A program made the translations under genes and the position numbers. From contig NC_015663.1 of NCBI RefSeq assembly GCF_000215745.1, positions 4,436,780-4,500,779 on the forward strand: 64,000 nt of DNA, in the 5' to 3' direction. Below, in pieces: positions 18,930 to 63,996 of the stretch. The notes beneath the pieces are model-generated. The model had not been told where the DNA came from. It was given only the letters and a program-made list of their open reading frames with translations, and did no database searches. Each line of letters starts with the position of its first letter. The first letter of the stretch is position 1. Source of the DNA: Klebsiella aerogenes KCTC 2190. GTDB lineage: Bacteria; Pseudomonadota; Gammaproteobacteria; Enterobacterales; Enterobacteriaceae.

Positions 18930-18943
18930 TCGTTATGACTTTT

Positions 18944-21345: not shown

Positions 21346-21388
21346 AAATTACGCCCTTTATTTTATATAGGATACGCATAGGTAGGTG

Positions 21389-21700: not shown

Positions 21701-21745
21701 AACTATTCTCCGGGGTTAATTGTTTTCGATGCTATGATAATTAAA

Positions 21746-23155: not shown

Positions 23156-23176
23156 ACCTCACCTCTATAAAATTAG

Positions 23177-24439: not shown

Positions 24440-24470
24440 AGAATGACTCCGTAAGGCCGCAAATAATTAA

Positions 24471-24737: not shown

Positions 24738-24747
24738 CTCTACCTCA

Positions 24748-25188: not shown

Positions 25189-25260
25189 AAATTCCCCGAT
25201 AGCATTGAAAGTGAGCCTACTATAGTGGAATCTCTTCGCGGCTTACCGTGATCTTCATCT

Positions 25261-25315
25261 CAAAGTTAGCGCTAACATGGCAACAATGTTAAAATTCTTG
25301 TTACCGCTAACTTTG
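25261..25315. promoter_or_regulatory. Twin palindromic operators for the divergent LacI/GntR-type regulator
   Basis: GTTAGCGCTAAC at 25265-25276 is a perfect 12-base palindrome. GTTACCGCTAAC at 25300-25311 differs by one base. The centres are 35 bases apart, and the outer flanks mirror each other (CAAAGTTAGCG at the left, CGCTAACTTTG at the right). They resemble sites bound by GntR-type LacI-family repressors (GTTAC...GTAAC). The position between the PTS operon and the regulator gene fits repression of the operon and autoregulation. Confidence 0.7.
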
Positions 25316-25410
25316 TTATCCATACTTATCATTACTTTGCAGTTGGGCAATACGTAAAATGCCAAACATCATTTACAATGGCTGCCCAGTCAGGCGAAAG
25401 GAGGACACCA

Positions 25411-48284: not shown

Positions 48285-48308
48285 GTCCGCTACGAGCGAG
48301 GAGCGGAC
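48285..48308. repeat. 24-bp palindromic repeat, GAGCGA-loop type (single)
   Basis: Arms GTCCGCT and AGCGGAC around a ten-base loop ACGAGCGAGG. It lies 22 bases after the yedK pseudogene stop and is one of six units with the same 7-10-7 layout in this segment. Confidence 0.85.
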
Positions 48309-48381
48309 CTTTAAAAATAATATTTGATGGATTGAATGTTGGGAACTAAATGATTAGCATTTGCTCTTTCGGACAAAGAAA

Positions 48382-48999
48382 ATGACGGTTAACGATTCCC
48401 TCCTCGCATTCTCTCTCGCTGCACTGATACTTACCCTAACTCCCGGCCTCGATACCGCACTTATTCTGCGCACCGCTTGTGCCGAGGGCGGTAAAAAGGC
48501 ATTTCACGCTGCGCTTGGCATTGATGCCGGCTGTTTTGTATGGGGTGCGCTGATCGCGTTAGGTCTTGGTGCTCTTCTGGCGGTTTCAGAGATGGCATAC
48601 ACTGTTCTCAAAGTTTGTGGCGCGGTCTACCTGAGCTGGCTAGGCTTACAACTGCTGATACGTCCCCGATCATCTTTCAGTGATGGTGATGACAACAGTT
48701 CTCAGGGGAACTGGTTTATCAGAGGGATGCTGGGGAATGTGCTCAATCCTAAAATGGGTATTTTCTATGTCTCTTTTTTGCCGCAGTTCATACCTGCCGG
48801 TCACTCTCCTTTGATATGGACTTTTATCCTGGTCAGCATCCACGTTGCGATTGGGACTATATGGTCACTCACACTCATTCTATCCACGCAATTTGCGTCA
48901 GCCGTATTGAAGAAAAGCCACGTTGTCCAAATGATGGATAGAGCAACAGGCGGCTTGTTTCTATGCTTCGCGGCTAAACTTGCATTTAGCACGAGATAA
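48382..48999 (+). CDS. LysE/RhtB-family amino acid exporter
   Basis: A 205-residue membrane protein with six hydrophobic segments and the family start NDSLLAFSLAALILTLTPGLDT. Other family stretches are GIDAGCFVWGALIALGLGALL, YLSWLGLQLL and NVLNPKMGIFYVSFLPQFIP. Members export amino acids or homoserine lactones. The ATG at 48382 gives the normal length; an upstream TTG is open but has no site. It stands alone between repeat elements. Confidence 0.88.
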   Translation: MTVNDSLLAFSLAALILTLTPGLDTALILRTACAEGGKKAFHAALGIDAGCFVWGALIALGLGALLAVSEMAYTVLKVCGAVYLSWLGLQLLIRPRSSFSDGDDNSSQGNWFIRGMLGNVLNPKMGIFYVSFLPQFIPAGHSPLIWTFILVSIHVAIGTIWSLTLILSTQFASAVLKKSHVVQMMDRATGGLFLCFAAKLAFSTR

Positions 49000-49019
49000 G
49001 CCTTGGACTGGCTGTTAAC

Positions 49020-49085
49020 GTCCGCTCCTGGCACGAAGCGGACCGCCTAAAGCGTGGCAAGGTCCGCTCTGAGCGAAAAACGGAC
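49020..49085. repeat. 66-bp composite of two 24-bp palindromes
   Basis: First unit 49020-49043: arms GTCCGCT and AGCGGAC, loop CCTGGCACGA. Second unit 49062-49085: arms GTCCGCT and AACGGAC (one mismatch), loop CTGAGCGAAA. The starts are 42 bases apart, exactly as in the composite at 61771-61836. It lies 20 bases after the LysE-family gene. Confidence 0.88.
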
Positions 49086-49233
49086 CTTCAAATCCGAACC
49101 GGTTCGATTGATTAACCTTGGCTGTCAGTCAAGCCATCGTTAACATGAATCCGATCGAAAATTCCTTATCGCATTTTTTACAAATACGCAGTGTCAAGAA
49201 AGACAGATTCTGGCTCATGACAAGTAGAGTGGT

Positions 49234-50142
49234 TCATTTGTATAAAGAGACTTCGCCTTCAGGACGCGTTTTGAACCTGCGATGCATCCACAGGTATTGC
49301 TCAGGAGCACGGAGAATTTCATGCTCGATGATCTTATTCATATAAGCCGCTGCGGCGACCTTGTCTTCCCCTGGATAGCCTGACAACGGATTGCTGATAT
49401 ACATGTGATAACCTTTTTTATCGCTACGTCGAATCATGCTAAGTGTGATTAAGTGTGCACCAGCGAGCTTTGACAGAGCATACGTTCCGTTCGTCGTTGC
49501 TGCTTTTTTTACCGAGAAAAAAGGTGCAAAAACGCTTCCTTTAGACCCATAATCCTGGTCTGGTGCAAACCAAACGGCTTCACCAGCTTTTAGCGCATGA
49601 ACAAAACCAGATAAATTACGGCGATTAATCATAGCTTTATTTGAACGCATACGCCCTTTTGTCTGTACCCATTCCATTAATGGATCATTGTGTGGGCGAT
49701 ACGTTGCCATCATAGGATGACATAACCCCATTACCCTTCCACACAACTCAAGGGACATAAAATGAATCCCGACAACCATTACTCCTCTTGTCGCGCCGGT
49801 CAGGTTTTCAAGCCCTTCGACATCAAACCATTTTTTGACTCTCGCATCGCTCCAGAACCAGGCCATTCCTGTTTCCATCAGTCCCAGCCCAAGAGAAACA
49901 AAGTTTTTATTAACCATCTGGCTCCGGGCAAACGGTGTCATCTCGGGGAAGCACAGTTCGATATTTCTAATCGCAATTCCTTCCCGACGTTTCAGAAAGG
50001 GTCTGGATATTTTTCCAAGGCCAGAACCCAGAATATGTAAAACCGGGTAAGGAAGCTGAACGAGAAGCCACAGCAGACCCAAACCAGACCAGGTAAGCCA
50101 GTGGCGAGGATGAAGTAAATTATGAGTAAACGTCTGTGCCAT
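49234..50142 (-). CDS. lpxP: LpxP-like lipid A palmitoleoyl acyltransferase
   Basis: A 302-residue inner-membrane acyltransferase of the LpxL/LpxM/LpxP family. One N-terminal membrane segment is followed by the catalytic HX4E motif (His127 and Glu132 in GIHFMSLEL). Stretches such as KWFDVEGLENL, MGLCHPMMATYRPHND and VWFAPDQDYG are closer to cold-inducible LpxP than to housekeeping LpxL. LpxP adds palmitoleate in place of laurate to lipid A at low temperature. It is not in its usual chromosomal setting: it stands among accessory genes and probably supplements a resident lpxL. Confidence 0.87.
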   Translation of the reverse strand: MAQTFTHNLLHPRHWLTWSGLGLLWLLVQLPYPVLHILGSGLGKISRPFLKRREGIAIRNIELCFPEMTPFARSQMVNKNFVSLGLGLMETGMAWFWSDARVKKWFDVEGLENLTGATRGVMVVGIHFMSLELCGRVMGLCHPMMATYRPHNDPLMEWVQTKGRMRSNKAMINRRNLSGFVHALKAGEAVWFAPDQDYGSKGSVFAPFFSVKKAATTNGTYALSKLAGAHLITLSMIRRSDKKGYHMYISNPLSGYPGEDKVAAAAYMNKIIEHEILRAPEQYLWMHRRFKTRPEGEVSLYK

Positions 50143-50343
50143 AAATTTCCTTAATGCTAATGAAGGTTATAACGCAAAAGGAAAACAATGAGGCAATTCG
50201 TCTTTAGCGATACATTTTGTTTTAGACAATTTAAACCCATCTAAATTCAGAGAAAATTATTTTGAAATGCCTGGTAAAGGATTTAAAGAGCCAGAATGAA
50301 TTGTAAGCCAGCAAATTTATTCTGTTATAAATCCATGGTTTTA

Positions 50344-50616
50344 TCATTGATACTCAAGAAATTGTCTTCTTGATTCATCATCATCAAGGTACTCAAAAGA
50401 AAGAAGCCGAATTTTGGTAAGTTTATAAAACCACTCGCAATCGTTTCGTTGAATATTTTCGCCTGGTTTGAAACATATCCCTGAAGCCACCCGGATAATC
50501 GCATATTTACCATTACTAAACCTGACCCGGTGAATACAGAAAGGTTGGCCAGCCTGTCCGTGACAGCTGTTCGACAGGATATGCCCTTCAATAAAAACAG
50601 ATTTTTTAGATTTCAT
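50344..50616 (-). CDS. Small hypothetical protein
   Basis: A 90-residue soluble protein, not recognised. The start giving MKSKKSVFIEGHIL has a GAGGG site seven bases upstream; an ATG two codons earlier would sit on top of that site. It contains CIHRVRFSNGKYAIIRVASG, suggesting a small beta-barrel, and an acidic C-terminus. It lies between lpxP and a zinc-ribbon gene on the same strand. Confidence 0.6.
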   Translation of the reverse strand: MKSKKSVFIEGHILSNSCHGQAGQPFCIHRVRFSNGKYAIIRVASGICFKPGENIQRNDCEWFYKLTKIRLLSFEYLDDDESRRQFLEYQ

Positions 50617-50695
50617 TATCATACCCTCGACAACTGCAGTACAGGAGAAATGTTGTCATTTCCCGACATCACGGTCGTTAAGTGGCAGAAGCTGA

Positions 50696-50872
50696 TCAGC
50701 CGCCGATACACCAGCATTCTGAAGGCCTGAACAACAGTCCGCAGGCAGGGCACTCAAGAACCGCATCTTTTCTTAGTTTACCTGCTTTCTGATCGGCTCT
50801 GTGTGCGCATACCGGGCAGGCAACATGAACCGGTCTTTCTTTAAAATACCTGAGCCCATTTGTATAAGACAT
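50696..50872 (-). CDS. YnfU-like zinc-ribbon protein, copy 1
   Basis: A 58-residue protein starting MSYTNGLRYFK with two CPxC knuckles: VACPVCAHRADQKAGKLRK and LECPACGLLFRP. This is the YnfU family layout of a tiny treble-clef or ribbon zinc protein. The frame is open 20 codons upstream, but these encode an implausible hydrophobic start. A second member lies at 60017-60187, on the far side of the glucan synthase. The function is unknown. Confidence 0.72.
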   Translation of the reverse strand: MSYTNGLRYFKERPVHVACPVCAHRADQKAGKLRKDAVLECPACGLLFRPSECWCIGG

Positions 50873-50994
50873 AAATAATTCTCTGAGGAATATAGTAGTT
50901 ATTATACGCTTTAATATAAAAATAACTGGCATAAGTTATGTTAAGTTGTGTCTGAATCAGGATATCAGATATTGAAAATTGAACGTCTCATTTA

Positions 50995-51003
50995 TGGTAT
51001 ACT
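50995..51003 (+). promoter_or_regulatory. Extended -10 promoter for the AriR-like gene
   Basis: TGGTATACT matches an extended -10 element (TGN-TATAAT with one change). Transcription from it would start near 51010 and lead directly to the ATG at 51026. This supports the shorter protein rather than a start at 50948. Confidence 0.55.
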
Positions 51004-51025
51004 ACCCTTCCGTGAGAAATTTAAG

Positions 51026-51259
51026 ATGAAATCAGAAGACACCCTTGACTGGTATCCGGCACAACTACCGCCTGTGAAAATTATTCTTGGCGAAGCCGTG
51101 CTGGCTGTGGGTAAACAGGGCCGACCGATTAATACCCGCACCTTGCTGGAATACCTTCAGGTCATGCAGGACAAACAAAAAAGGCGGGATGACAAAATCG
51201 CCATGCAGACTGCGATTGATGTTCTCAGGGATAATCAGCGCATTAACGGCAGACGTTAA
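51026..51259 (+). CDS. AriR/YmgB-type small regulatory connector
   Basis: A 77-residue protein starting MKSEDTLDWYP, with the helical core ILGEAVLAVGKQGRPINTRTLLEYLQVM. Length and the GEAV...G-INTRTLL pattern resemble the YcgZ/YmgA/AriR family of small proteins that act on the Rcs phosphorelay and biofilm matrix in E. coli, a group induced by cold and blue light. The similarity is in the core only, so this assignment is moderate. It converges on the glucan synthase gene with a 19-base gap. Confidence 0.55.
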   Translation: MKSEDTLDWYPAQLPPVKIILGEAVLAVGKQGRPINTRTLLEYLQVMQDKQKRRDDKIAMQTAIDVLRDNQRINGRR

Positions 51260-51278
51260 TGCACCTCCGGGATCAGTG

Positions 51279-54200
51279 TCAGTTCTGAATGATCTCAACC
51301 GTATGGTTTTGTCCATCATCCTTCAGCGGTATTCTGTCATCAGGGAGGAGAACACCATCCAGCGTCACGCAATATTCTGCATCGCCGCGTGAAACACTAA
51401 TCTGATAATGGCTTTCACCATATTGATATGCCATAGAAAAAGACGACCACTCATCCGGTAACCTGGCATGAACACTAAAGTCAGTGCCGGAACGTTTTAT
51501 CCCCAGTAATTCCTCGGTAAGTAAACGCCAGGCCCAGCCTGCGGAACCGGTATACCAGCTCCACCCTGCACGTCCGGTATGGGGAGCGACGCTGTAGACA
51601 TCAGCACTCATGACATAAGGCTCAGCTTTATAAATCCCGACAGAGTCCGCATTCAGGGTATGATTTATAGGGCTGAGCATTGACCAGAGTTGCCAGGCTC
51701 GTTCGGTATTCCCCATTCGGGCAAAGGCCATCACTGCCCAGATGGCGCCATGCGTATACTGCCCTCCGTTTTCCCGCACGCCGGGCAGGTACCCCTGTAT
51801 GTAGCCCGGATTTGGACCGTGTCCGTCGAAAGGAGGCGTTAACAGTTTGATCAGCCCTCCTTCGTTATCCACAAGGTGCTTATCCAGCGCCTGCATGGCC
51901 TTTGCGCACCGTCCCGGGCTCGCGGCGCCGGACAATACAGACCAGCTCTGCGCAATCGCATCAATCCGGCAGTCCTGTGAGGTTTTCGATCCCAGGGGAG
52001 TACCATCGTCAAAATACCCGCGCCGGTACCATTCCCCATCCCAGGCGTGGGCTTCGAGATTACTTTGCAGGCGCAGAGCCTGTGAACGGCACATCGCGGC
52101 GACGCTTTCATCCAGCCTGCGCTCCGCCAGCGCTGCAAACCGCTGCAAAATGTCGTACAGGAAGAAGCCCAGCCAGACGCTTTCACCTTTGCCTTCGATA
52201 CCCACCCGGTTCATCCCGTCATTCCAGTCACCAGCCCCCATCAGCGGCAGGCCATGCTCCCCGAAGCGAAGTCCATAGTGAATAGCTTTGACGCAGTGTA
52301 ACCAGAGTGTCTCTTCGGTGCCGCTGATGACCGGCGTGTCATAGACAGACTCTTCACCTGGCTGAAGCGAGCGTCCCTCCAGATAAGGAATGCGTATTTC
52401 CAGTGCATCCATATCCCCCGTCGTTTCAACATAGTGGCAAACAGCAAGCGGCAGCCAAAGATAGTCATCGGAACAGCGGGTACGCACACCGTTGCCGTGT
52501 GGCGGGTGCCACCAGTGCTGCACATCCCCCTCGATAAACTGCCGTGATGCACAGAGTATTATCTGTTCACGCATCCGGTTCGGAGCAGCGTGGCTCAGAG
52601 CCAGCGTATCCTGCAGCTGATCGCGAAAACCAAATGCCCCCCCAGACTGATAGTAGCCACTCCGGGCCATAAGACGGCAGGCGACCGTCTGATACAACAG
52701 CCAGCCATTAACCAGTAAATTTACTGACGTGTCGGGGGTGTTAACTACGATTTTATCGAGCACATTGTGCCAGTGATTATGAATCCGGTTCAGCTCCTGG
52801 CGGACCGTATCCTCGTTCATGTAGCGGGCCAGCGTCTCCTGAGCACAAACATCATTCTCCTCTGCGCCGAGGATAAAAATAAACGTCCTCTGGTCCCCGT
52901 CAATTAATGTAACCGCCGATTGCACCGCTCCGCAGGGATCCAGACCGGCCCCCGTCTTACCAGAAAGCTTTTGCAGTTTCATGGCCGAAGGGGCGTGAAG
53001 GGAACCATTACGGCCAATAAACTCCCGGCGGTCCCCTGTCAGAGAACAGTCATTACCGCTGACGGCAAAAAATGCAGTTCGGCCGCCACCATTATCACCA
53101 TAAAAGTTATTCGCAAGCACCCCGCAGCCGCCGGGCGTTCTGGCCACATGTGTCACAATGTGAGGGGCTGAGCGCGTTCGTGTTTCTCCGAGCGTCCACT
53201 CTACATAGCCTGTGACGGAAAGTTGACGTGTCCGTCCCGAAGAGTTACTGAGCGTCAGGAGCACCAGTTTAACCGGATCCGCTTCGGCAACCAGGACCGT
53301 CAACTCGCTGTCTATACCATTCTCACGATGGGCAAAAACGCTGTAGCCAAAACCATGGCGGGTCAGGTAATCACCGTGTCCGCGAACAGGTAAAGCCGTC
53401 GGCGACCAGCACTCCCCGCTCTCTTCATCGCGCAGGTAAAATGCCTCGCCGTTGCGATCGCTCACCGGATCGTTCTCCCACGGCGTCAACCGGTATTCAT
53501 GGGCATTCTCATACCAGGTATAGGCCTGCCCTGCCTCTGAGATCACGCTGCCAAAACGGGAATTTGCCAGTATGTTCGACCAGGGAGCCGGTGTAAGCGC
53601 ATTTTCCCGAAGGACGATCTGATACTCCCGCCCATCCTGAGAAAATCCACCGTACCCATTGAAATGGCATAACTGACTGGTATCAGGGATCCAGTCCGTA
53701 TGTTGATTACGCTCGCGCACAGCACGCGGAATGAATGCCCTTGCCGGCGATTTCAGGGTATGAATACGCTGGTTAAGCTGCTCAATAATACCCCCTGCGC
53801 GATCATCAAGATACAGACAGGCCACGCTCATCAAAAGCAACTTATCCTCAGCGGAGAGATGCTCACCGTTGCGGACAAAAAGCCCGCCCTTTTTATCCAG
53901 CAGACTGGCTTCAGACCCGGCATATATTAACTCCATAATCTGATTTTGTAATCCCTGCTGGTAGCCGCCGGGGCTGTTATTCAGGATAACCAAATCAACA
54001 TTCAGCCCTTTCTGTCTCCAGTAACGGTGTGCCTGAATCAGTGTGGTCACTGAGGTGATACTTTCCTCGCTGGTTATACTCAGCAGCACTATCGGCAGAT
54101 CCCCTGAAATTGCCCAGCCCCACAGTCCGGACTGGCCACGCCGGTTGCGGCCGATCGCCTGGCCTTCGGCGCGCAGCTCCTGGACAGGGTAAAGCACAGC

Positions 54201-57200
54201 GCTGGCGAGACAATTGAACAACGTGGCATCATCTTCACTGGCGTTCATCTGGCGCAGTACCACCAGACTGTGAGACCAGGCCAGTTCAAAGACGCGATCG
54301 GCGATAGGGTAATCGCGATATTTCTCCAGCAACGCCAGGCTCTGCTGACGGGTCTCGCTGATGCCATAAATGATATCAATCGTAACCGGCTGCCCCGGCT
54401 GCAGAATGATTGCGTTGCGAATTGCCAGTATCGGATCCAGCACCGAGCCCGACGTGTTGCTTAGCATCCCTCCCGTCTCTATTGCCTGGGCATTCGCAGG
54501 GTTTCTGCCACGTCCAATAAACCTTGCCCTGTCCGTTTCAAACGACACGTTATGTCGGTTATCGCCGTGCACCACCATCATGTGAAACAGGCAAGGACAC
54601 GGTTCATCCGGTGAGCGCGGGCGCCGGTGGCAAAGAATAGCGTCACGCTCAGGAGCCAGCTCAGTCTGAATAAACAAATTGCTGAATGCCGGGTGTGCCA
54701 GATCGCTGGCATCAGATGCCAGTACCACTTCAGCATAGGTTGTCAGCTCCAGAGAGCGAGGCTTGCGACCACGATGAATCAGTGTGAGCCGTCGCAATTC
54801 AACATCATCCTCCGGAGAGATCACCACCTGAGTTTTGACGCTGAGTCCCCCTAAGCTGCGTCTGAATTCTGCCCCCGCATCGGTGAACAACACTTCCTCG
54901 TCTTGTCCGCTGGTGTAGCCTGTTGGTTGCCAGGTATTGCTCCACACATCTCCCGTCTGGGTATCGCGGATGTAGCAGAATGCTCCCCAGTTATCACGGG
55001 TGGTATCACTGCGCCAGCGCGTTAGTGCAATATCATTCCAGCGACTGTAACCACCGCCGCCCGCGGTCAACATCAGATGATAATGGCCGTTGGACAGGAG
55101 CTGAATATCCGGGGCGGGGGTATCCACGCTATAGAAAATACGGGGTTCATAGCGAACGGGTTTGACCATGCCCTCATGAGATTCAAAATGACGGCGCGGA
55201 CTGTACAGATCGACCGCATCCGGCACGCGCTCCTGTAACAGCAGACTCGCTGACCGGAATACCGTGCTGGACATAAAGCGTTCAGTCATGGGGGCGTCAA
55301 GCAGCACATGAGCCAGCGCCTGAAATGCCATACCCTGGTGATGCGCCATCCAGGACTGTACCACCGCATAGAGCTGACCGGTTGCAAGACGTGAGGGGGT
55401 ATAGTCCAGCGCTTCATAAAAACCGTATTCTCCGCGTGCACCATTTTTTTGCAGCCTGAACAGGTTCTCACAGGCTCTCTGTGGGGAAACCATCAGCGCC
55501 AGCAGCGTGGCGTAAGGAGCAACAACCATGTCATCGGCAAGTCCCCTGCGCAGACCGAGCCCCGGTACGCCAAATGCCTGATACTGATAATTATGCTGAA
55601 CATCAAAAGCATGATAGCCAGACTCTGAAACACCCCATGGTACCCCGCGTTCTTTCCCCCAGTGAATCTGGCGCATAACCGCCGACTGACTCATTTCATC
55701 GAGCAGGCTGCCGGGCCAGGTGGGCATGACCAGATTCGGCATCAGATATTCAAACATGGATCCGCTCCATGACATCAGGGCAGTTTCATTATCAATCGTG
55801 GTAAACAATCGACCCAGCGCGTACCAGCTTTTAAGAGGCAGCTGATTAGTCGCAATGGCAAGAAAACTGGTCAGGCGGATTTCAGACGGCAGGAGATCGT
55901 AGTGGCTCTTGTCAGGCATATTGGTGTCACAGTTATAACCGACGCTGAGCAGACTGGTTGCTTCACTGTACAGAAAGGCGAAATCCATCCGGGCATGCTC
56001 ATCCAGCCGCTGTTCCAGCTCGGTGATAATATTGAGTCGCATTCGGGCCTGCTCCGCCACTGACGCCGGAGCCATTCCTGTACCGGTTAATGTCGGACGG
56101 GCAAGCTCGCTCAGCGTCGGCAGCGTCTGTTCATTCCAGGATGCAGGCAACCAGCCAAGCAACAGAGACCACTCATGGCAAAGCTGAACCAGTTGATGCT
56201 CCAGATGTCCAGCCCAGCGCATCTGAAGAGGAGACCCCTGATGACATGCGCTGGTCAGATGGTTGCACTGGGTGCGCATGCTTTTCAGTTCGCTGAAAAG
56301 CGCCTGCGGAGAGAGCGACACCGCGTTCAGGCAATGCTTGCGCAGCAGTCTCAGGCTGTCAGGTGGGTTCTTACCCCACTGTTTTTCCAGAATATCCAGC
56401 GTATCGTTCAGTCCTGCCAGTATCTGTTGGTTGCTTAAAACAGGCTGATGACGCATGGCGGACAGACCTGCACGCAGGGTCAATAAATGCCCGGCCATAT
56501 TACCGCTGTCGACGCTGGAGATATAGCGTGGACTTAGGGGGACCAGCGTACGGGTGTCATACCAGTTGTAGAGATGGCCCCGGTAGTGCTCCATTTTATC
56601 CATCGTGTCGAGCGTGAGCGACACGCGCCGGAGCACCTCTCCGCCAGGCAGGTAGCCAAAGTCCCATGCCGTCAGGTTAGCCATAAGTGAAAGACCAATA
56701 TTGGTAGGAGAAGTTCGGTGTGCCACCGTCGGTTGTGGCATTTCCTGATAATTATCAGGCGGAAGCCAGTTCTCTTTTGCTGTGGCAAATGTTTCAAAAA
56801 AAGCCCAGATTTCACGGCTTGTCTGGCGTAACAGCTGTTTTTGTTCCTGGTTAGGCGAAAAAACCTTACGCACGGGCTGGCGACTCAGCCAGCTCATCAG
56901 CAGTGGTGCCACACACCATACCAAACCGATCGGTAACGCAATCCCCAGCAGCTGTGGGGCAAATTGTCCGGTCAGTATTGTCAGCGCCACGCCACCGGCA
57001 ACGTTCAGCCACATCGCCTGATAAAAACGTGCAACAGTGGGTCTGGCCTGACTGCTGTCCTGGCTGTGGCTGACCCACTGGCTGAGGTGACGCCTGCTTA
57101 TCCCCAGTCGCCATAGCGTCACGGCGATCGCTTTCAGCGAATATCCGGCTTCGTGCGGCAGTATCGCAAAATTAAGGCTGATACCTGACAGACGCTTTAG

Positions 57201-59861
57201 CGCGCCCGCCCCCACCAGTAACAGATGTGGCTTCACGCGGCGACGCAGAGGTTTATGCAGAAGGTCGTGGCTAATGCAGAGGATGGCTGGCAACAGCCAT
57301 ATCAGCAACAGTATGCCCAGCCAGTAAACCGGATTGGGTACCCAAAGCAGAGTGAAGAACAGCAATACCAATAAGGAGGGGGCGACCAGACTGCGACGTA
57401 GATTATCGAGTAATTTCCAGTAAGAAAGCGCGGTCAGCGGATTCCTGCCCCGGGTTCCATCGGCTTTTCTGACGCGTGGTTTTAGCCAGTTAAGTAGTTG
57501 CCAGTCACCCCGGATCCAGCGTGAACGTCGTGCAACATCCGACAGATAATTATTAGGGTACTGTTCGTACAGTAACACCTCGCTCAGCAGACCCGAACGT
57601 GCATAGCATCCTTCAAGCAGATCGTGGCTGAGTACCAGATTTTCCGGGCAGATGTTGGTAGTGGCCTGCATAAAAATATCAACATCGTAAATCCCTTTGC
57701 CCACAAACGAGCCTTCCCCAAAGAGATCCTGATAAATATCCGAAGACATCATCGAATAAGGGTTATTGCCCGGTACGCTGCTGCGCAGGGCTGCGTAACG
57801 CCCCTGACCGTTGCGTGGTATCTCCTCCGCAAGACCGGGCTGTAAAATACCGAATCCTTTGACAACCCTCTGGCGTACCGGATCATACTCAGGCGTATTC
57901 AGCGGATGCGCCATCGTCGCGACGAGTTTGTGTGCCGTATCGCGCGGGAGCACCGTATCGCTGTCCAGGGTAATGACGTATTTTATGTGACCCGGTAAAA
58001 GGTGGGCAGGCATCTCTGCAACGCTGACGAATTGCGTTCCGGGATGGCGCAACCAGCTGTTCAGTAACGCCAGTTTTCCCCGCTTGCGTTCATAGCCCAT
58101 CCACGCTCCTTCCGAGGGGTTCCATTCAGGCTGACGATGTAACAGATAAAAACGTGGTCGGCCGGAGGGGTAACGGCGATTAAGCGCCTGCGTATCGGCG
58201 ATAGCCTTTCTGAGCAGCGCATGACTTTCCGGCGAGGGTTCATTTTCAGAATCAGCAAAATCAGTGAGCAGCGCGAACCTGAGATTTTCGTTTTCATTCC
58301 CCAACCAGCAGACTTCAAGACTGGTGAGGAGCTGGCTGAAACTTTCGTGGCTGGTCAGCATGCAGGGAATGACTAACATGGTGGCACTGTCAGCGGGAAT
58401 ACCGGCTGAAAAATCCATCCCCGGCAAGGGGCGAGGAACGCGAAAACGGGTGGTTGCATCACTGAGTAAATCGCTCATTAACTGAGTTAAAGCGATAATC
58501 AGAGGTAATATCACAGCGATCAATAGCCATTCTGCGCCCTGCATGGCGGTTTCGTGCAATATTGCTGCGGTCGCTGCGGTTGTCAGCAACGCCAGGCTTC
58601 CAAGCCATGACAGCAGGGTTATTCTGTTGAAACTGTGCCGCAAGCGTATGAGCCTTGAGGCGTCTGCCAGGAGATGAATATCCAGCGCCTGTCGACCTTC
58701 GCCTGCAAGATAATAACCAACATGATGTTCCGGTGTATCGCGCGCTTTTTCCTCTGAAAGCGCCAGCGCCTTCTCAGCAACATCAGGCTCGCTGAGACCG
58801 CTGTCTCTGGCCAGAACCTCAACTACGTGCCGGTAATGATCCCGGGTATTGAAGTGCATCCGGGGATAGATGCCGGCAGGATCATTGCGTAATGTCTGTT
58901 CGACAACGCTTATCGTTTCGGCGAAATCAGCCCAGTCCGTTTCACTCACTAATCGCAGGCCCGCGATGCTGTTACTGACGGACAGCTGGCTGGCGGCAAG
59001 CTGCTGATTGAAACTATGTATGAGAACGTCAGTGGTGATCCCCTGTTCCCGAAGGCACTGATCAACCCAGGTCAGAGGTAACGACAGCGCGTTGCCATGC
59101 CCCTGCAGGCGCCGCACCAGCTCTGCGACAAACGCACTGGTTAACGGAGGTCGGGAGCGCGCCATATCGGCAACTACCATGATTAAATCACCAGGCGCAC
59201 TCTCTGCGCATTCGACAATCCTTGTTATCCACGTATCGGCAAGGTTTCTGTCTTGCTGCGCTTTTATCACTTCCATACTGATACGACGAAGATTTTCAAT
59301 CAGTGCCAGGCGCAGCATTCCCGGTAACGCCCAGATTTCACCCAGCGTCAGCGGCGTCACCTGTTGATAGGCAGTGAGATAGCTGGTCAGGCTGGCGGCA
59401 TCCCAGCGGCCATCGCCGTGAGCAATAGCCTCTGATGCAATATGATAAATTCGTGGGCAATTCAGCGGCGATACCAGCGATGGAAGACCTTTGCCAAAGC
59501 TTTTCGGCAGATGCTGGCGGACAGTGCGGATTTGTTCCTCAATCAGATAATAATTGTCCAGCAGCCATTCACCGGCGGGCATGATACTGGTCTTTTTACC
59601 CGCGTTAAGCTCATAGCAGTTTTGGGTAATGACGGCCTCATTGTCGCCAAGCCGTTTCAGAAGATAATAAGGATGCTTATCCGGTGATACTTTATGAGTC
59701 CGCGCCAGCTTCTGGCCGTAGCGTTCCATCTGGGCGGTCGAAAAGAGTTCTGACCGCGGCGAGCTTTCACCGGCAGGATCGTTCGCCGAAAACGTTATGT
59801 TTTCGGCAGCATTCATCAGAATACGGGAGCGGTTAAACCACGCTCTTGGGTTCATTTTCAT
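51279..59861 (-). CDS. ndvB: Cyclic beta-1,2-glucan synthase (NdvB/ChvB type)
   Basis: A 2860-residue inner-membrane enzyme, matching the length of rhizobial NdvB/ChvB and Brucella Cgs. Membrane pairs lie at about 414-470, with further clusters at about 820-860 and 960-1000. Between them is the GT84 glycosyltransferase domain with the DSDTVLP motif (near 633-639) and RRSRWIRGDW (near 778). A glucoamylase-like domain follows (about 1290-1550, GVPWGVSESGYHAFDVQ), then two beta-sandwich regions. The GH94 phosphorylase-like domain carries GDWNDGMNRVG near 2545 and sets ring size. It makes cyclic osmoregulated periplasmic glucans, unlike the linear OpgGH type usual in enterics. The frame is uninterrupted. 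Confidence 0.93.
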   Translation of the reverse strand: MKMNPRAWFNRSRILMNAAENITFSANDPAGESSPRSELFSTAQMERYGQKLARTHKVSPDKHPYYLLKRLGDNEAVITQNCYELNAGKKTSIMPAGEWLLDNYYLIEEQIRTVRQHLPKSFGKGLPSLVSPLNCPRIYHIASEAIAHGDGRWDAASLTSYLTAYQQVTPLTLGEIWALPGMLRLALIENLRRISMEVIKAQQDRNLADTWITRIVECAESAPGDLIMVVADMARSRPPLTSAFVAELVRRLQGHGNALSLPLTWVDQCLREQGITTDVLIHSFNQQLAASQLSVSNSIAGLRLVSETDWADFAETISVVEQTLRNDPAGIYPRMHFNTRDHYRHVVEVLARDSGLSEPDVAEKALALSEEKARDTPEHHVGYYLAGEGRQALDIHLLADASRLIRLRHSFNRITLLSWLGSLALLTTAATAAILHETAMQGAEWLLIAVILPLIIALTQLMSDLLSDATTRFRVPRPLPGMDFSAGIPADSATMLVIPCMLTSHESFSQLLTSLEVCWLGNENENLRFALLTDFADSENEPSPESHALLRKAIADTQALNRRYPSGRPRFYLLHRQPEWNPSEGAWMGYERKRGKLALLNSWLRHPGTQFVSVAEMPAHLLPGHIKYVITLDSDTVLPRDTAHKLVATMAHPLNTPEYDPVRQRVVKGFGILQPGLAEEIPRNGQGRYAALRSSVPGNNPYSMMSSDIYQDLFGEGSFVGKGIYDVDIFMQATTNICPENLVLSHDLLEGCYARSGLLSEVLLYEQYPNNYLSDVARRSRWIRGDWQLLNWLKPRVRKADGTRGRNPLTALSYWKLLDNLRRSLVAPSLLVLLFFTLLWVPNPVYWLGILLLIWLLPAILCISHDLLHKPLRRRVKPHLLLVGAGALKRLSGISLNFAILPHEAGYSLKAIAVTLWRLGISRRHLSQWVSHSQDSSQARPTVARFYQAMWLNVAGGVALTILTGQFAPQLLGIALPIGLVWCVAPLLMSWLSRQPVRKVFSPNQEQKQLLRQTSREIWAFFETFATAKENWLPPDNYQEMPQPTVAHRTSPTNIGLSLMANLTAWDFGYLPGGEVLRRVSLTLDTMDKMEHYRGHLYNWYDTRTLVPLSPRYISSVDSGNMAGHLLTLRAGLSAMRHQPVLSNQQILAGLNDTLDILEKQWGKNPPDSLRLLRKHCLNAVSLSPQALFSELKSMRTQCNHLTSACHQGSPLQMRWAGHLEHQLVQLCHEWSLLLGWLPASWNEQTLPTLSELARPTLTGTGMAPASVAEQARMRLNIITELEQRLDEHARMDFAFLYSEATSLLSVGYNCDTNMPDKSHYDLLPSEIRLTSFLAIATNQLPLKSWYALGRLFTTIDNETALMSWSGSMFEYLMPNLVMPTWPGSLLDEMSQSAVMRQIHWGKERGVPWGVSESGYHAFDVQHNYQYQAFGVPGLGLRRGLADDMVVAPYATLLALMVSPQRACENLFRLQKNGARGEYGFYEALDYTPSRLATGQLYAVVQSWMAHHQGMAFQALAHVLLDAPMTERFMSSTVFRSASLLLQERVPDAVDLYSPRRHFESHEGMVKPVRYEPRIFYSVDTPAPDIQLLSNGHYHLMLTAGGGGYSRWNDIALTRWRSDTTRDNWGAFCYIRDTQTGDVWSNTWQPTGYTSGQDEEVLFTDAGAEFRRSLGGLSVKTQVVISPEDDVELRRLTLIHRGRKPRSLELTTYAEVVLASDASDLAHPAFSNLFIQTELAPERDAILCHRRPRSPDEPCPCLFHMMVVHGDNRHNVSFETDRARFIGRGRNPANAQAIETGGMLSNTSGSVLDPILAIRNAIILQPGQPVTIDIIYGISETRQQSLALLEKYRDYPIADRVFELAWSHSLVVLRQMNASEDDATLFNCLASAVLYPVQELRAEGQAIGRNRRGQSGLWGWAISGDLPIVLLSITSEESITSVTTLIQAHRYWRQKGLNVDLVILNNSPGGYQQGLQNQIMELIYAGSEASLLDKKGGLFVRNGEHLSAEDKLLLMSVACLYLDDRAGGIIEQLNQRIHTLKSPARAFIPRAVRERNQHTDWIPDTSQLCHFNGYGGFSQDGREYQIVLRENALTPAPWSNILANSRFGSVISEAGQAYTWYENAHEYRLTPWENDPVSDRNGEAFYLRDEESGECWSPTALPVRGHGDYLTRHGFGYSVFAHRENGIDSELTVLVAEADPVKLVLLTLSNSSGRTRQLSVTGYVEWTLGETRTRSAPHIVTHVARTPGGCGVLANNFYGDNGGGRTAFFAVSGNDCSLTGDRREFIGRNGSLHAPSAMKLQKLSGKTGAGLDPCGAVQSAVTLIDGDQRTFIFILGAEENDVCAQETLARYMNEDTVRQELNRIHNHWHNVLDKIVVNTPDTSVNLLVNGWLLYQTVACRLMARSGYYQSGGAFGFRDQLQDTLALSHAAPNRMREQIILCASRQFIEGDVQHWWHPPHGNGVRTRCSDDYLWLPLAVCHYVETTGDMDALEIRIPYLEGRSLQPGEESVYDTPVISGTEETLWLHCVKAIHYGLRFGEHGLPLMGAGDWNDGMNRVGIEGKGESVWLGFFLYDILQRFAALAERRLDESVAAMCRSQALRLQSNLEAHAWDGEWYRRGYFDDGTPLGSKTSQDCRIDAIAQSWSVLSGAASPGRCAKAMQALDKHLVDNEGGLIKLLTPPFDGHGPNPGYIQGYLPGVRENGGQYTHGAIWAVMAFARMGNTERAWQLWSMLSPINHTLNADSVGIYKAEPYVMSADVYSVAPHTGRAGWSWYTGSAGWAWRLLTEELLGIKRSGTDFSVHARLPDEWSSFSMAYQYGESHYQISVSRGDAEYCVTLDGVLLPDDRIPLKDDGQNHTVEIIQN

Positions 59862-60016
59862 AGCATTGCTCTGATGCGACGTTAGCGCGCAGGAGCAGTT
59901 GCGAAATCAGTTCAGAAACGTTCTCTCAGGATGGGCGTCAGGCATCAGGGATTTAACAGCTGCCGGAATCTAACATAAGTATAGGACATGAGATCTGTTA
60001 TGCGGTTTTTGTCGAG

Positions 60017-60187
60017 CTAGCGTCGGGAGATAAACAGAGCCTTACATCCGGGGCAAAGCATGGTCTGGTTGAGCCGAATTTTTGACAACGGTTGTGCTGA
60101 TTTTAAGCCACAAACAGGACAGGCAGCAGCGGCAGTAGACGCACTGCTGAAGAGTTTCATTGCGTAATTGATAACAGACATAACCAT
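60017..60187 (-). CDS. ynfU: YnfU-like zinc-ribbon protein, copy 2
   Basis: A 56-residue protein starting MVMSVINYAMKLFSS, with CPVCGLKSAQPLSKIRLNQ and LCPGCKALFISRR. It has the same two CPxC knuckles and spacing as copy 1 at 50696-50872. A possible AGG site lies upstream. It lies between the glucan synthase promoter side and cspH, all on the minus strand. Assignment is by the zinc motif, length and the ALFI ending. Confidence 0.7.
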   Translation of the reverse strand: MVMSVINYAMKLFSSASTAAAACPVCGLKSAQPLSKIRLNQTMLCPGCKALFISRR

Positions 60188-60262
60188 TAACCTTTCAATG
60201 AATGAGATTCATCGTACCACATGTGGTTAAGTTTTAATCTATTTATTTTGACACACTGAAAA

Positions 60263-60475
60263 TCAGGAAAGATAAATGTTCGCAGCCACAGGCCCCCTGA
60301 GACCGTTTATCCGGCAAAATTCTATGCGCCTTCCAGGGATGAGTAATTCTGATTCGCGGGAGTTAACGGCTGAAATGTGAAGCAGAACGTCTTTTCGGCC
60401 ATCAGCTGGGATGATGAGGCCTTTACCGCTAAGAATGTCAAAGCTTTTGACAATTCCTGTCATTTTATGGGACAA
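60263..60475 (-). CDS. cspH: Cold-shock-like protein CspH
   Basis: A 70-residue cold-shock-domain protein very close to E. coli Csp[30 protein letters not shown] and [19 protein letters not shown]. As in CspH, the usual RNA-binding aromatic motif (KGFGFI) is replaced by KGLIIP, so nucleic-acid binding may be weak. The start is a TTG preceded by AAGGA six bases upstream; an internal ATG four codons later has no such site. It is divergent from the CspG-like gene. Confidence 0.88.
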
Positions 60476-60753
60476 GTCAATTCCTTATTGAAAACACGTA
60501 AAGACTATACATTGAAAATGGCATTCAGCCACTTTTATTTTCCCTACAGGACCTCTGGACGGCTAAAAGATAATTTGCTTATATCGATTCCCTGTGCCTT
60601 AATGAATCGCATCAGTTAGATGTACGAATGAAAGTTTGAAATTTTCCGGGCAGTTCTCATTACCAGGTGCTATCGTTGATATCCCCTCTTTTGAGTCCAT
60701 ACATTTAATCTTATACGTTTACTATCAATACAATCATGTATAACGGAGTCAGT

Positions 60754-60972
60754 ATGACCTCTAGAATTATGGGCCTGGTTAAATGGTTTAACGAAGACAA
60801 AGGTTTTGGCTTCATCTCTCCTCTTGATGGCAGCAAAGATATCTTTGTCCATTTGTCTGCACTTAATGGCGACAACTTTAAAACTTTATTTGAAGGACAG
60901 AAAGTTGAATTCGCCATTCACCGTGGAGACAAGGGGCCTACTGCTGCAAACGTAACACTTTGCGATAAATAA
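60754..60972 (+). CDS. CspA-family major cold-shock protein (CspG/CspB-like)
   Basis: A 72-residue cold-shock-domain protein. Both RNA-binding motifs are intact: KGFGFI and [22 protein letters not shown] and [18 protein letters not shown] resemble the cold-inducible CspA/B/G/I group. The start giving MTSRIMG has a CGGAG site upstream; an ATG six codons earlier does not. A 278-base spacer separates it from cspH, long enough for the structured leader typical of cold-inducible csp mRNAs, but no cold box could be assigned. Confidence 0.88.
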
Positions 60973-61240
60973 ATCATTGTGGGTCTGCGATAACGATGAA
61001 GGATTATTCCTGAGTAGACAGATCCATAACTTAAATCAGATGAAAGTCGTTTATTCTTAATATCTGATCAGTATAATTTTCAAAATTATGAGTATGCTAA
61101 CCGATGTGATGAAGTGCAGTACTACTGCATAAAAAGTCTAAAAGCACAAGCTAACCACATGTTAAATAAGAAGTGCGTAATGGCTTTGACCTTAATGGCA
61201 TCTGCCAGTTAATATCCACGAGAGAACAGGGTAATAGAAT

Positions 61241-61468
61241 ATGATTAAAGTCCTTGTTTTCTTTAATGCTGAATCCTGTAAAGTCATGACCGTTCTGGAA
61301 GGTATATCCTCTATCAGGCAGGAATATCCAAACGGTGAAGAAACACATCTTCGGATTATGTCTGCAGGTTTTCCTTCCTTAACTGGCGATCATGGCATTG
61401 TTTACGTAGCTACTGACAGGGAGTTAACGTCACAGGAGATACTTGATGCGGCCAGGAAATATTTATAG
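61241..61468 (+). CDS. Small hypothetical protein
   Basis: A 75-residue soluble protein starting MIKVLVFFNAESCKVMTVLE, with an acidic C-terminal helix (SQEILDAARKYL). An AGGGTAA site lies upstream and a terminator follows 90 bases after the stop. The alternating alpha/beta pattern suggests a compact domain, but no family was recognised. It is isolated in an AT-rich stretch between the csp gene and the phosphatase. Confidence 0.6.
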   Translation: MIKVLVFFNAESCKVMTVLEGISSIRQEYPNGEETHLRIMSAGFPSLTGDHGIVYVATDRELTSQEILDAARKYL

Positions 61469-61770
61469 CATTTTTTTCATGCTCTCTGCTTCACGTTTAA
61501 TTGCAAGCTTATCCTATTTATCAGAATCGAACAAAAAATGAGTTAAAAACATTTATGGCCTGCTAACAACAGGCTTTTTTTTACATTTAACTTTTAGAAC
61601 CTTCCTCTGAAAAGAGAGAATAATTCACTTTCCTCGGACAAAATGCAGGCTCTCTCGCCCTACCATCTTGCTTTTTGTGCGAAATCTTCCTAAGCGGCAG
61701 GGCTAATTAACTTGTCGACTCTTCTGCTTTCAGTTCATCAAGTATGACTGATGCAACAAGATATAAAGAT
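61469..61770. other. AT-rich spacer with a terminator
   Basis: No gene seen. Apart from the hairpin terminator at 61558-61582, the region is plain AT-rich DNA leading to the composite palindromic repeat at 61771. Confidence 0.5.
61558..61582 (+). terminator. Rho-independent terminator
   Basis: Stem GCCTG and CAGGC with a seven-base loop and a run of eight T. It ends transcripts from the small gene at 61241-61468, 90 bases upstream. Confidence 0.8.
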
Positions 61771-61836
61771 GTCCGCTTGTGGCACAGTGCGGGCTAACTC
61801 ACCGAGCATAAAGTCCGCTGTGAGCGAGGAGCGGAC
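61771..61836. repeat. 66-bp composite of two 24-bp palindromes
   Basis: First unit 61771-61794: arms GTCCGCT and TGCGGGC (two mismatches), loop TGTGGCACAG. Second unit 61813-61836: arms GTCCGCT and AGCGGAC, loop GTGAGCGAGG. The 42-base start-to-start distance equals that at 49020-49085, but the 18-base linkers differ. It lies 60 bases beyond the phosphatase stop. Confidence 0.85.
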
Positions 61837-61896
61837 ATTGTGCTTAAATAATGATGACTCTGGCAGGATGGGTTTTCAATGCCTGGAAGGTAGCCA

Positions 61897-62517
61897 CTAA
61901 TTCAGGTGACGTAAATGTGTAGCAATCCCCCACTTTAGGCCGATACATTTTCCATTAATCAGGTCGATAACAGAATAACTTGCATTGGGGTGAGCATAGC
62001 GAGGGAAACTATTGACAGTCCCTTCTTTAAGAATTGCCAGAGTGCCCTGACTGACATGCCCGTGAGACACAATACATATTGTTTGTTGATGTGATGAGGT
62101 ATCTTCCAGGTTTTGTAAAAAACGCATAACTCGCTGAGAAGCATGCGCCAGTGACTCCCCCCCAGGTGGACAATACTCTGCATCAAGCCTGAATAACGCA
62201 TTTGCATAGTTTGGATGTTTTTGTCTGAGTAGTTCTAACGGCATACCTTCAAACTGACCAAAGGCCTGCTCTTTAAGGGCCGGTTCAGCCGTCAGTGAAC
62301 AATGAAAGTGTTCAGCCAGGCTTTGCCCCATTTGCCAGGCACGCCCAAGCGGAGAAGCGTAAACACGCTCTATTTGATACTCACTTGCACTAAACGCTGC
62401 TAGTAGGACGGATGTTTCACGCAAACCCCGACAGGTCAAGGAGCTATCGCTGTGCCCCTGAATAATTCCTTCCCAATTCCACTCTGTTTCTGCGTGTCGA
62501 ACAAGTATCAATTTCAT
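61897..62517 (-). CDS. Histidine phosphatase family protein
   Basis: A 206-residue phosphoglycerate-mutase-like phosphatase. The phosphohistidine motif LVRHAETEWN gives Arg7 and His8, with the second catalytic His in CIVSHGHVSQG and the YASPLGRAWQM and PGGESLAHASQRV segments. Such enzymes hydrolyse small phosphorylated metabolites; the substrate here is unknown. The start giving MKLILVRH fits the family; codons open upstream do not resemble it. It lies between two copies of the 24-bp repeat family. Confidence 0.83.
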   Translation of the reverse strand: MKLILVRHAETEWNWEGIIQGHSDSSLTCRGLRETSVLLAAFSASEYQIERVYASPLGRAWQMGQSLAEHFHCSLTAEPALKEQAFGQFEGMPLELLRQKHPNYANALFRLDAEYCPPGGESLAHASQRVMRFLQNLEDTSSHQQTICIVSHGHVSQGTLAILKEGTVNSFPRYAHPNASYSVIDLINGKCIGLKWGIATHLRHLN

Positions 62518-62689
62518 CGTTAGCTGGCCATGCTCGTTGTTGATCAAAATGTCCCAACTGCGCGATATCAAACACACACCGTTGAAGCAGCGGAAGGCTT
62601 TCCTGTTTTGGAAATAATGAACAAGTGTAGCTTATTGCCGTTATGCAGCGGCTCTGGGTGTGGGGCGCTGAATTTTATCCGTAGTTAAC

Positions 62690-62713
62690 TTCCGCTCCTG
62701 GCACAATGCGGAC
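62690..62713. repeat. 24-bp palindromic repeat, GGCAC-loop type (single)
   Basis: Arms TTCCGCT and TGCGGAC (one changed base in each arm) around the loop CCTGGCACAA. It lies between the phosphatase start and the umuC 3' end, 17 bases past the umuC stop. Confidence 0.75.
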
Positions 62714-62730: not shown

Positions 62731-63996
62731 TCATCGAACCCTAAGCAGGTCTGAATATCTTGTTGTATAGCGAGGCGAAAGCATTTCTCTCTTCATCTGC
62801 CAGGTGGCCTGGATCCCCTGTCCAGCAAAATAGAGAGTTCCCCTTCCGTCCTTTGCATTGAGGTGGTCGAGAACTTCCATCAGTTTCTCACTATTCTGCC
62901 TTGGCGCATTATCGTCGAACAGGTTCAGCTGCGCGACACCCTGGCTATAGAAATCACCGAGCATGATCCCCGCTTTCTGATACCTGTGCCCGTCGACCCA
63001 TATCGCATCCAGGCACTTTACTGCGGCATTGATGATATCCCGGCTATCCTGCGTGGGCGTCAGCAACTTAATGGATCCGCTGTTACCGTAGTATTTTTCG
63101 TTCAGCGCAAAGGGAGATGTCTTCACAAAGGTGGAAATATAGCGACAGTACTGATGCTCTCCACGAAGTTTCTCTGCCCCTCTGGCCGCATATGAACAAA
63201 TAGCCTGGCGCATTTGTTCATAGGTGGTAATGCGTTCCCCGAACGACCGGCTGCAGACGATTTCCTGTTTCACTGGCGCAAACTCTTCCAGTTCAAGACA
63301 CGGCTCGCCGCGAAGTTCCCGGACGGTTCTCTCAAGCACAACGTTGAAGTGCTTACGGATGAAGCGAATATCCGTATCAGCTAGCTGTAGGACGGTTTTT
63401 ATCCCCATAGCCTCAAGCTTTTTGCTGATACGGCGACCAACACCCCACACCTCATCAACCGGAAGTAAAGCCATCAGTTTGCGCTGCCGTTCCACATTCG
63501 AAAGGTCGACAACTCCGCCAGTGGCTTTCCATGTTTTCGCCGCATGATTGGCGAGTTTTGCCAGCGTCTTTGTTTGTGCGATCCCTACCCCGACCGGGAG
63601 CCTGGTATTACGGTAAACGGTATCTTTTAACTCATGTCCGAACTCTTCCAGCACACGACAATTACGTACACCAGTTATATCGCAAAATGCCTCATCAATG
63701 CTGTAGATTTCAACTCTGGGACATATTTCCTCCAGTGTCGTCATGACCCTGTTGCTCATATCCGCGTAGAGCTCATAGTTCGAACTGAAGCAAACCACTC
63801 CATGCCGGCGGAACTGGTCTTTGCATTTGAAGTACGGATCCCCCATCTTAATACCAAGCTTCTTGGCTTCGGCAGAACGCGCTATCACGCAACCATCGTT
63901 GTTGGACAATACGACAACTGGCTTCCCTCGCAGATCCGGCCTGAAAATGGTTTCGCAGCTCGCATAGAAGCTGTTCACATCAACCAGAGCAAACAT
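62731..63996 (-). CDS. umuC: DNA polymerase V catalytic subunit UmuC
   Basis: A 421-residue Y-family translesion polymerase. Catalytic acidic residues are Asp6 (FALVDVNSFY) and Asp101-Glu102 (SIDEAF). Helix-hairpin-helix GVGRRISKKLEAMGI and the C-terminal clamp-binding segment AQLNLFDD are visible. Complete at both ends. The partner umuD would lie just outside the window upstream. A plasmid- or prophage-type umuDC is possible given the accessory surroundings. Confidence 0.94.
   Translation of the reverse strand: MFALVDVNSFYASCETIFRPDLRGKPVVVLSNNDGCVIARSAEAKKLGIKMGDPYFKCKDQFRRHGVVCFSSNYELYADMSNRVMTTLEEICPRVEIYSIDEAFCDITGVRNCRVLEEFGHELKDTVYRNTRLPVGVGIAQTKTLAKLANHAAKTWKATGGVVDLSNVERQRKLMALLPVDEVWGVGRRISKKLEAMGIKTVLQLADTDIRFIRKHFNVVLERTVRELRGEPCLELEEFAPVKQEIVCSRSFGERITTYEQMRQAICSYAARGAEKLRGEHQYCRYISTFVKTSPFALNEKYYGNSGSIKLLTPTQDSRDIINAAVKCLDAIWVDGHRYQKAGIMLGDFYSQGVAQLNLFDDNAPRQNSEKLMEVLDHLNAKDGRGTLYFAGQGIQATWQMKREMLSPRYTTRYSDLLRVR

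Follow-up and report, generated by a model that had tools for sequence, protein, structure and literature searches.

A transferred gene block joining a second lpxP, cold-shock gene homologues and an ndvB-type synthase gene with a conserved leader in Klebsiella aerogenes

Enterobacteriaceae use linear glucans of the osmoregulated periplasmic glucan (OPG) type, and the YmcF and YnfQ proteins are cold-shock proteins. The block described here, 12.7 kb in length, occupies positions 49017–61770 of a 64,000-nucleotide stretch of contig NC_015663.1 (the window), the single-contig, 5.28-Mb chromosome of Klebsiella aerogenes KCTC 2190. It contains lpxP, orf92, ynfU2, a ydfK homologue, ndvB, ynfU1, a cspF/H-type gene, a cspB-like gene and a ynfN homologue. 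In Escherichia coli K-12, the homologues of its small genes cluster at cspH/cspG-ymcF and in the Qin prophage, the second of which likewise has a divergent cspB/cspF pair and further contains ynfU, ynfN and ydfK. The block shares gene families and a divergent cspB/cspF pair with the Qin sets (cspI-ynfQ-ynfN; cspB/cspF, ynfU, ydfK) and with cspH/cspG-ymcF, but it joins to them lpxP and an 8.6-kb ndvB, and is also borne on plasmids.

According to the available excerpts, lpxP rises by 3.60 log2 on average in E. coli O157 shifted to 14 °C, where cspG and cspH rise too (PMC4057180), YdfK is strongly increased in the cold (PMC10654059) and the LpxP of E. coli adds palmitoleate at 12 °C (PMC8406137). 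For the synthase, the closest prior report among the literature matches listed concerns the endophyte K. pneumoniae 342, whose integrated element IE06 carries an NdvB protein that the excerpt reads as a possible osmotic adaptation (PMC2453333). In both cases, NdvB is carried by a mobile element of a related bacterium, whereas the description through which alone IE06 is known here makes, in its available part, no mention of lpxP, cold-shock genes or a leader (PMC2453333). NdvB of Pantoea ananatis is set beside plant-defence protection in the excerpt available (PMC4070556). Neither the block nor the leader of its ndvB is described among the literature matches listed, most subscription papers being out of reach.

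The block is one transferred unit, and it is read here as a mobile stress module that would, probably in the cold and at low osmolarity, add palmitoleoyl lipid A and cyclic β-1,2-glucan under Csp-type RNA chaperoning (probability about 0.55). A preliminary description of this stretch had placed such a gene cluster within 12 kb; the cluster is present, with one of its gene names wrong and others refined. Its genes are as follows.

49234–50142, minus strand: lpxP, Kdo2-lipid IVA palmitoleoyltransferase, second genomic copy (NF005952 equivalog, 535.6 bits, cut-off 517)
50344–50622, minus strand: orf92, orphan 92-aa protein (no Pfam match at E ≤ 10; 35 protein clusters at E ≤ 0.001)
50696–50872, minus strand: ynfU2, YnfU-family zinc ribbon (NF038384, 59.0 bits, cut-off 36; PF23499, 32.2 bits, cut-off 27)
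51026–51259, plus strand: ydfK homologue (62% to K-12 YdfK, E 9e-33)
51279–59861, minus strand: ndvB, cyclic glucan synthase homologue of 2860 aa, matching Agrobacterium Cgs
60017–60187, minus strand: ynfU1, zinc ribbon of the YnfU family, encoded immediately upstream of ndvB (NF038384, 57.3 bits, cut-off 36)
60263–60475, minus strand: cspF/cspH-type cold-shock-domain protein (71% to K-12 CspH, 70% to CspF)
60736–60972, plus strand: cspB/cspA-type cold-shock protein, divergent from cspF/H (68% to K-12 CspB)
61241–61468, plus strand: ynfN homologue (67% to K-12 YnfN over 49 aa)

The order on the minus strand is cspF/H, ynfU1, ndvB, ynfU2, orf92, lpxP; the cspB-like gene and the ynfN and ydfK homologues are on the plus strand. 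A LysE-type transporter gene flanks the block on one side and a histidine phosphatase/umuC pair on the other (names from translations, that of the transporter also from a family-model scan). GC content is 0.53–0.55 over ndvB and 0.41–0.47 in the 2-kb windows that hold the flanking small genes.

One unit on plasmids and chromosomes

A survey of 72,556 plasmid records, which are a biased sample, with the 12.7-kb block as query gave 53 matching records, 21 of which hold at least 80% of the block in one place. These near-complete copies are on plasmids of Enterobacter, Klebsiella, Escherichia and Salmonella, at about 92–98% identity, and partial or more distant matches occur on plasmids of the same four genera and of Kosakonia, Lelliottia, Erwinia, Duffyella and Pantoea. 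Matches were found in 13 of 5426 E. coli genomes, two of them over at least 80% of the block and two by just a 64-base edge match. In one relative (G309), the block is at the same chromosomal place beside an SRAP gene, inverted.

The left neighbours vary among the near-complete copies examined: ABC/Mla-type genes with SRAP and IS110, arsH, or an acetyltransferase with a glyoxalase, and further, in other copies, an alkyl sulfatase, hypothetical genes or a Tn7-like tns set. On the right, some copies share neighbours, and homology among copies continues past the edge of the window. Two E. coli plasmids that have ndvB, ydfK and orf92 but not lpxP have common surroundings. No clean empty site was found; over the 19 kb compared, a relative in which no ndvB was found (G001) has nothing but the LysE-type stretch in common with the window. 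Because the same order is found in different surroundings, the genes constitute one transferred unit, as had been proposed, and their grouping is not a matter of chance, since several genera have that order, on plasmids as well as on chromosomes.

The preliminary description had named scattered genes without conserved linkage in relatives as grounds for refutation; on this point it was not refuted. An ndvB gene is present in 78 of 392 genomes of the family, and linkage was assessed at 74 ndvB loci with flanks of at most about 5.4 kb, some ending at contig ends. At the eight loci with an NdvB identity of 87–99% (L112–L119), ynfU1, ydfK and the cspF/H-type gene are present in all eight (the last is partial in L118), the divergent cspB-like partner is at its usual place in six and lpxP is present in five. 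In 20 of the 74 loci, a same-strand YnfU gene, detected with a profile from YnfU proteins, lies no more than 700 bp upstream of ndvB. In a FastTree NdvB tree of 75 rows (78 taken, three dropped), with gene states set by hand and partial csp matches taken as present, ynfU accompanies 24 rows, ydfK 18, csp 13 and lpxP 12, with fewest changes of 8, 4, 3 and 4, respectively. The pattern is roughly nested, ynfU being deepest, followed by ydfK, csp and lpxP, with exceptions such as L121–L124.

Other arrangements of these families also occur. L124 has a cspH/cspB pair and ynfQ upstream of ndvB, and positions 12223–16529 of L211 (NdvB 73%) hold ndvB with two ydfK, ynfT, ynfQ, ynfN, orf92 and two ynfU genes in an order differing from that of the block. 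In four genomes of one Brenneria-like genus, a gene for an LpxP-like paralogue directly precedes that of a distant NdvB (about 41%), and three of these genomes also have a YnfU gene upstream; the nearest named relative of one such acyltransferase is from Brenneria roseae (84%). The same four genomes hold a separate, closer LpxP (66–67%), and in the two of the four that were scanned the paralogue is under the LpxP equivalog cut-off (463 and 465 bits, cut-off 517). This adjacency counts as one event in one genus.

The edges of the block are marked by palindromes.

49017–49086, no strand: left edge, two palindromes of the GTCCGCT...AGCGGAC type; homology to other copies starts at 49017 or at the second palindrome (49059–49062)
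61764–61838, no strand: right edge; homology to other copies stops at 61764–61770, and a further palindrome of the left-edge type follows immediately

The 24-base palindrome core has six genomic copies at up to three mismatches, four of them at window positions 48285–61836. No integrase or transposase was found among the nine genes of the block that were scanned (other overlapping open reading frames were outside the scan). It is quite unlikely that the genes have no joint function, that is, that stress genes gathered on plasmid or island DNA were trapped together beside repeats and then spread as a block. Such an origin would agree with the palindromic repeats at both edges, with the presence of csp, ynfU and ydfK in the Qin prophage, with plasmid neighbours that are mixed cargo (arsenic genes, restriction, transporters) and with copies that have no lpxP or csp; it is at odds with the roughly nested pattern of the NdvB tree, with repeated pairings in different arrangements and with purifying selection on lpxP and ndvB.

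Several minor features adjoin the copies. An H-NS family gene is located past the right edge in L187 (18964–19368), L006 (7567–7971) and L186 (19053–19457, annotated 'DNA-binding protein'); it is a possible silencer of the block, and none was seen beside the block in the window. A match to the isrN small RNA (149.9 bits, cut-off 44) lies beside the copy in L116, at 18061–18203. Of the palindromes beyond the block, one adjoins a 98% identical copy of the 61890–62713 stretch at chromosome position 3755842, and the sixth copy is about 8 kb from that copy of the stretch.

The NdvB synthase and the second LpxP

The naming of the large gene as an NdvB-type cyclic glucan synthase is borne out by a near full-length match: residues 78–2836 of 2860 align with Agrobacterium Cgs (1949.5 bits; structures 8rf9 and 8rf0). 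In the alignment to 8rf9 and 8rf0, with an 8rf9 numbering offset of 19 derived from that alignment, all 11 residues checked are kept: D527, D624, D626, Y694, D739, R773, S1101, D1104, E1300, D2393 and D2528. The glycosyltransferase, cyclase and phosphorylase residues and the primer tyrosine are conserved, their roles in the Agrobacterium enzyme being taken from the available part of its description (PMC10901819). NdvB scores 400.6 bits against PF17167, and the dN/dS of ndvB versus other copies is 0.10–0.18. Judged from its sequence, NdvB looks functional, and its product would be a cyclic glucan. The likeness to Agrobacterium Cgs includes both the length of the match and the active-site residues; in contrast to that system, the K. 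aerogenes genome has no ChvA/NdvA exporter over the cut-off, and its ndvB lies in a mobile block beside cold-shock homologues and has its own conserved leader.

The acyltransferase is likewise of the predicted kind. Like E. coli LpxP, the cold-induced palmitoleoyltransferase, it passes the LpxP equivalog cut-off; it differs from LpxP generally in being a second copy, 72% identical to the other LpxP of the same chromosome (at 4664244), and its specificity and regulation are putative. Three further, more distant acyltransferases are encoded in the genome. The dN/dS of lpxP versus other copies is 0.04–0.09. Genes of this lpxP type, defined as 98% or more of the gene at an identity of at least 80%, are present in 24 plasmid records, in all of which the match to the block extends into ndvB; five more of the 64 lpxP-matching plasmid records reach 80% identity, at least one of them with a mere 95-base piece. 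Another lpxP, about 67% identical, is found on K. pneumoniae and Salmonella plasmids outside the records that match the block.

The leader of ndvB

59862–59968, minus strand: ndvB 5′ leader, candidate cis-regulatory RNA (about 105 nt), a conserved element without an Rfam match
59978–59983, minus strand: TATACT, a −10-like hexamer (pattern only); 14 nt separate it from the conserved core of the leader that follows

The final ~105 nt before ndvB are near-constant while the preceding DNA and the upstream gene differ. At loci with an NdvB identity of 77%, the leader is 0.91–0.93 identical to that of the window, as compared with 0.40–0.44 at fourfold-degenerate sites (dS 1.57–1.91); at loci with 71–72% NdvB identity, the corresponding values are 0.80–0.86 and 0.34–0.38, shuffled leaders giving 0.40. 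The synonymous sites of ndvB are near saturation where the leader stays 91–93% identical; the leader is better conserved than the gene, and its sequence is strongly constrained. When nine intergenic stretches were compared in 11 loci, the leader alone was present in all 11, at 92–100%. Its conservation beyond that of the gene, in an element with no match in Rfam, is new here; the sole Rfam match in the block at E ≤ 1 is cspA.

The leader is present in every locus from L112 to L140 (NdvB 68–99%), with a diverged form in L140 and likewise in L211, and is not present at five compared loci with an NdvB identity of 58–65% (leader identity 0.20–0.61). A one-sequence profile of the window leader matched 70 of 202 loci, many of which are copies of one place. 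A covariance model found it in 23 of 295 genomes of the family, at one place each, all 23 abutting the start of ndvB; 22 of the 23 places were training loci and the filters were strict, so the search speaks for a lack of other leader copies and not for new ones. Four genomes outside the model (G398, G399, G402 and G403) have the leader at ndvB according to DNA similarity. A search for the leader at divergent NdvB, covering 66 loci (L140–L185 and 20 others), gave matches at L140 and L185 alone, both training sequences, and thus no new copy.

The consensus fold consists of a closing helix (GCAGCUGUU-AAUC with GAUU-CGCAACUGC) enclosing two hairpins. In the alignment, 98.9% of the cells pair, and both partners have changed in 2 of 23 pairs, against a mean of 0.4 in shuffled alignments, 11 of 500 of which reach that number. 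Covariation scores 0.050, versus 0.039 for shuffled and at most 0.029 for slid alignments, values that relatedness alone could yield, and the folding energy of the single sequence is unremarkable (z 0.32). The diverged L211 leader retains the closing helix on both strands, while its inner hairpins contain nonstandard pairs; a common fold beyond the closing helix was therefore set aside.

Two other identities for the leader were considered and rejected. As a conserved small open reading frame, it would have a 12-codon frame in the window, which an extra base disrupts in L130–L137. As a repeat shared by several genes, it would be expected elsewhere; in 40 relatives, the strong matches (nine genomes, E ≤ 1.4e-8) are all at ndvB, and the remaining ones among the matches listed are weak (E ≥ 0.026).

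A −10-like hexamer (five forms allowed) precedes the leader by 12–19 nt in 31 of 38 loci, as a pattern only; given this hexamer, the leader is probably the whole 5′ untranslated region (UTR). Promoter and terminator scans were uninformative (13 and 13 found, versus 13.5 and 12.1 in shuffles). The leader probably controls translation or mRNA stability of an ndvB gene that would have its own promoter. A more specific proposal, put forward tentatively and at somewhat less than even odds, is that the leader is a cis-regulatory RNA of a new class, sensing an envelope, osmotic or temperature-linked signal and that, together with this, the block is an undescribed mobile system of cold and osmotic envelope remodelling arranged around the leader, with the synthase, a zinc-ribbon partner, RNA chaperones and a lipid A enzyme. 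The leader is a compact target; its conservation exceeds that of the gene that follows, which makes the signal sensed a well-posed question.

Small genes, cold and osmolarity

The small companions of lpxP and ndvB are homologues of E. coli cold-shock genes. The protein first called CspH does belong to the cold-shock family, but it fails the CspH equivalog cut-off (NF012008, 122.1 versus 141 bits) and passes that of the CspF subfamily (NF012007, 126.5 versus 111 bits). Its divergent partner, first taken as CspG/CspA-type, has the cold-shock domain (PF00313, 102.1 versus 27 bits); in a comparison with K-12 CspB, CspF, CspG, CspH and CspI it is closest to CspB, and it reaches no NCBIfam csp cut-off, the top score being that of CspE (111.3 versus 120 bits). 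Both YnfU-like zinc ribbons were recognised correctly; ynfU1 does not reach the cut-off of Pfam PF23499 (20.6 versus 27 bits), and the start of ynfU2, listed as an open reading frame from 50932, is placed at 50872 after its homologues. The gene at 51026–51259, apparently the one described as an AriR/YmgB-like connector, encodes the YdfK homologue, and no YmgB match was found in Pfam at E ≤ 10. The dN/dS of ydfK versus other copies is 0–0.14 where defined; the values for ynfU, csp, orf92 and ynfN are more variable (maximum 0.93, ynfU1) and partly unreliable owing to few changes or partial matches.

The cspB-like gene overlaps a match to a known thermoregulator.

60611–61009, plus strand: cspA thermoregulator match, 5′ UTR and coding part (RF01766, 104.3 bits, cut-off 78, E 1.4e-25)

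In a check of seven loci, RF01766 was over the cut-off in L115, L116, L119, L124 and the K-12 cspG control (L090). In the mechanism proposed, a drop in temperature would turn on the cspB-like gene by way of its cspA-type mRNA, and RNA would be kept translatable by the Csp proteins acting with YdfK, YnfN and both zinc ribbons of the YnfU family. The extra LpxP would replace laurate with palmitoleate on lipid A and so keep the outer membrane fluid, while NdvB would convert UDP-glucose to cyclic β-1,2-glucan that, if exported, would buffer the periplasm at low osmolarity; the two enzymes may act jointly. Transcription of ndvB would start at its own promoter, with the conserved 5′ leader governing translation or mRNA stability.

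A number of observations weigh against this reading of the block as a cold and low-osmolarity module. The RF01766 model spans a coding part, so its score reflects the UTR only partly, and it was unmatched in L121 and L192 in the seven-locus check. The leader does not appear to be an RNA thermometer that opens the Shine–Dalgarno region: in predicted folds of 38 sequences, the start region is unpaired at 0.38 at 10 °C and 0.43 at 37 °C (0.42 and 0.46 in 20 shuffled sequences), and this candidate was rejected. Within flanks of the extent given above, csp is lacking from 62 of the 75 NdvB rows and lpxP from 63; csp and lpxP are also unmatched in the stretch of L211 examined. Several E. coli copies are decaying, with a frameshifted ndvB in L006, where IS1 also separates orf92 from lpxP, a truncated ndvB in L009 and no lpxP or csp in L007 and L008, and another record holds a 95-base lpxP remnant. 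No ChvA/NdvA exporter over the cut-off was found in the genome (best 269.8 versus 585.4 bits), which bears on export of the product and not on the identity of the synthase. In K-12, cspB, ydfK and ynfN are also increased in long-term stationary phase at 37 °C, according to the available excerpt (PMC7406224). Thus, of the remodelling unit suggested in the preliminary description, the transferred unit stands, and a purely cold role is countered by the many NdvB loci without cold genes, by the stationary-phase rise and by the exporter score.

The same stationary-phase rise (PMC7406224) would suit a glucan module for life on plants or surfaces, in which NdvB contributes to osmotic fitness or to interaction with plants, the role of the cold-shock homologues lies in general or stationary-phase stress and temperature is incidental. 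This is unlikely, and would agree with the wide distribution of ndvB, whose examined flanks mostly hold no cold genes, with the plant and soil bacteria among its plasmid carriers (Pantoea, Kosakonia and Klebsiella variicola) and with the excerpts that read NdvB as a possible osmotic adaptation in K. pneumoniae 342 (PMC2453333) and place it beside plant-defence protection in P. ananatis (PMC4070556). It leaves unexplained both the extra palmitoleoyltransferase and the several different sets of cold-shock homologues beside ndvB. If the cold and low-osmolarity module is real, plasmids would move a ready-made envelope kit between enteric and plant-associated bacteria, which would matter for how they survive in water, soil, food and plants, and Enterobacteriaceae would gain an acquired cyclic glucan.

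Two further parts of the window may be of foreign origin. The umuC gene (62731–63996, minus strand) has additional chromosomal copies at 4743571 (89%) and 4684031 (72%) and is possibly integrated plasmid DNA beside the block. Positions 12000–26000 have a lower GC content (0.43–0.52) amid values of mostly 0.55–0.60, possibly indicating another acquired segment.

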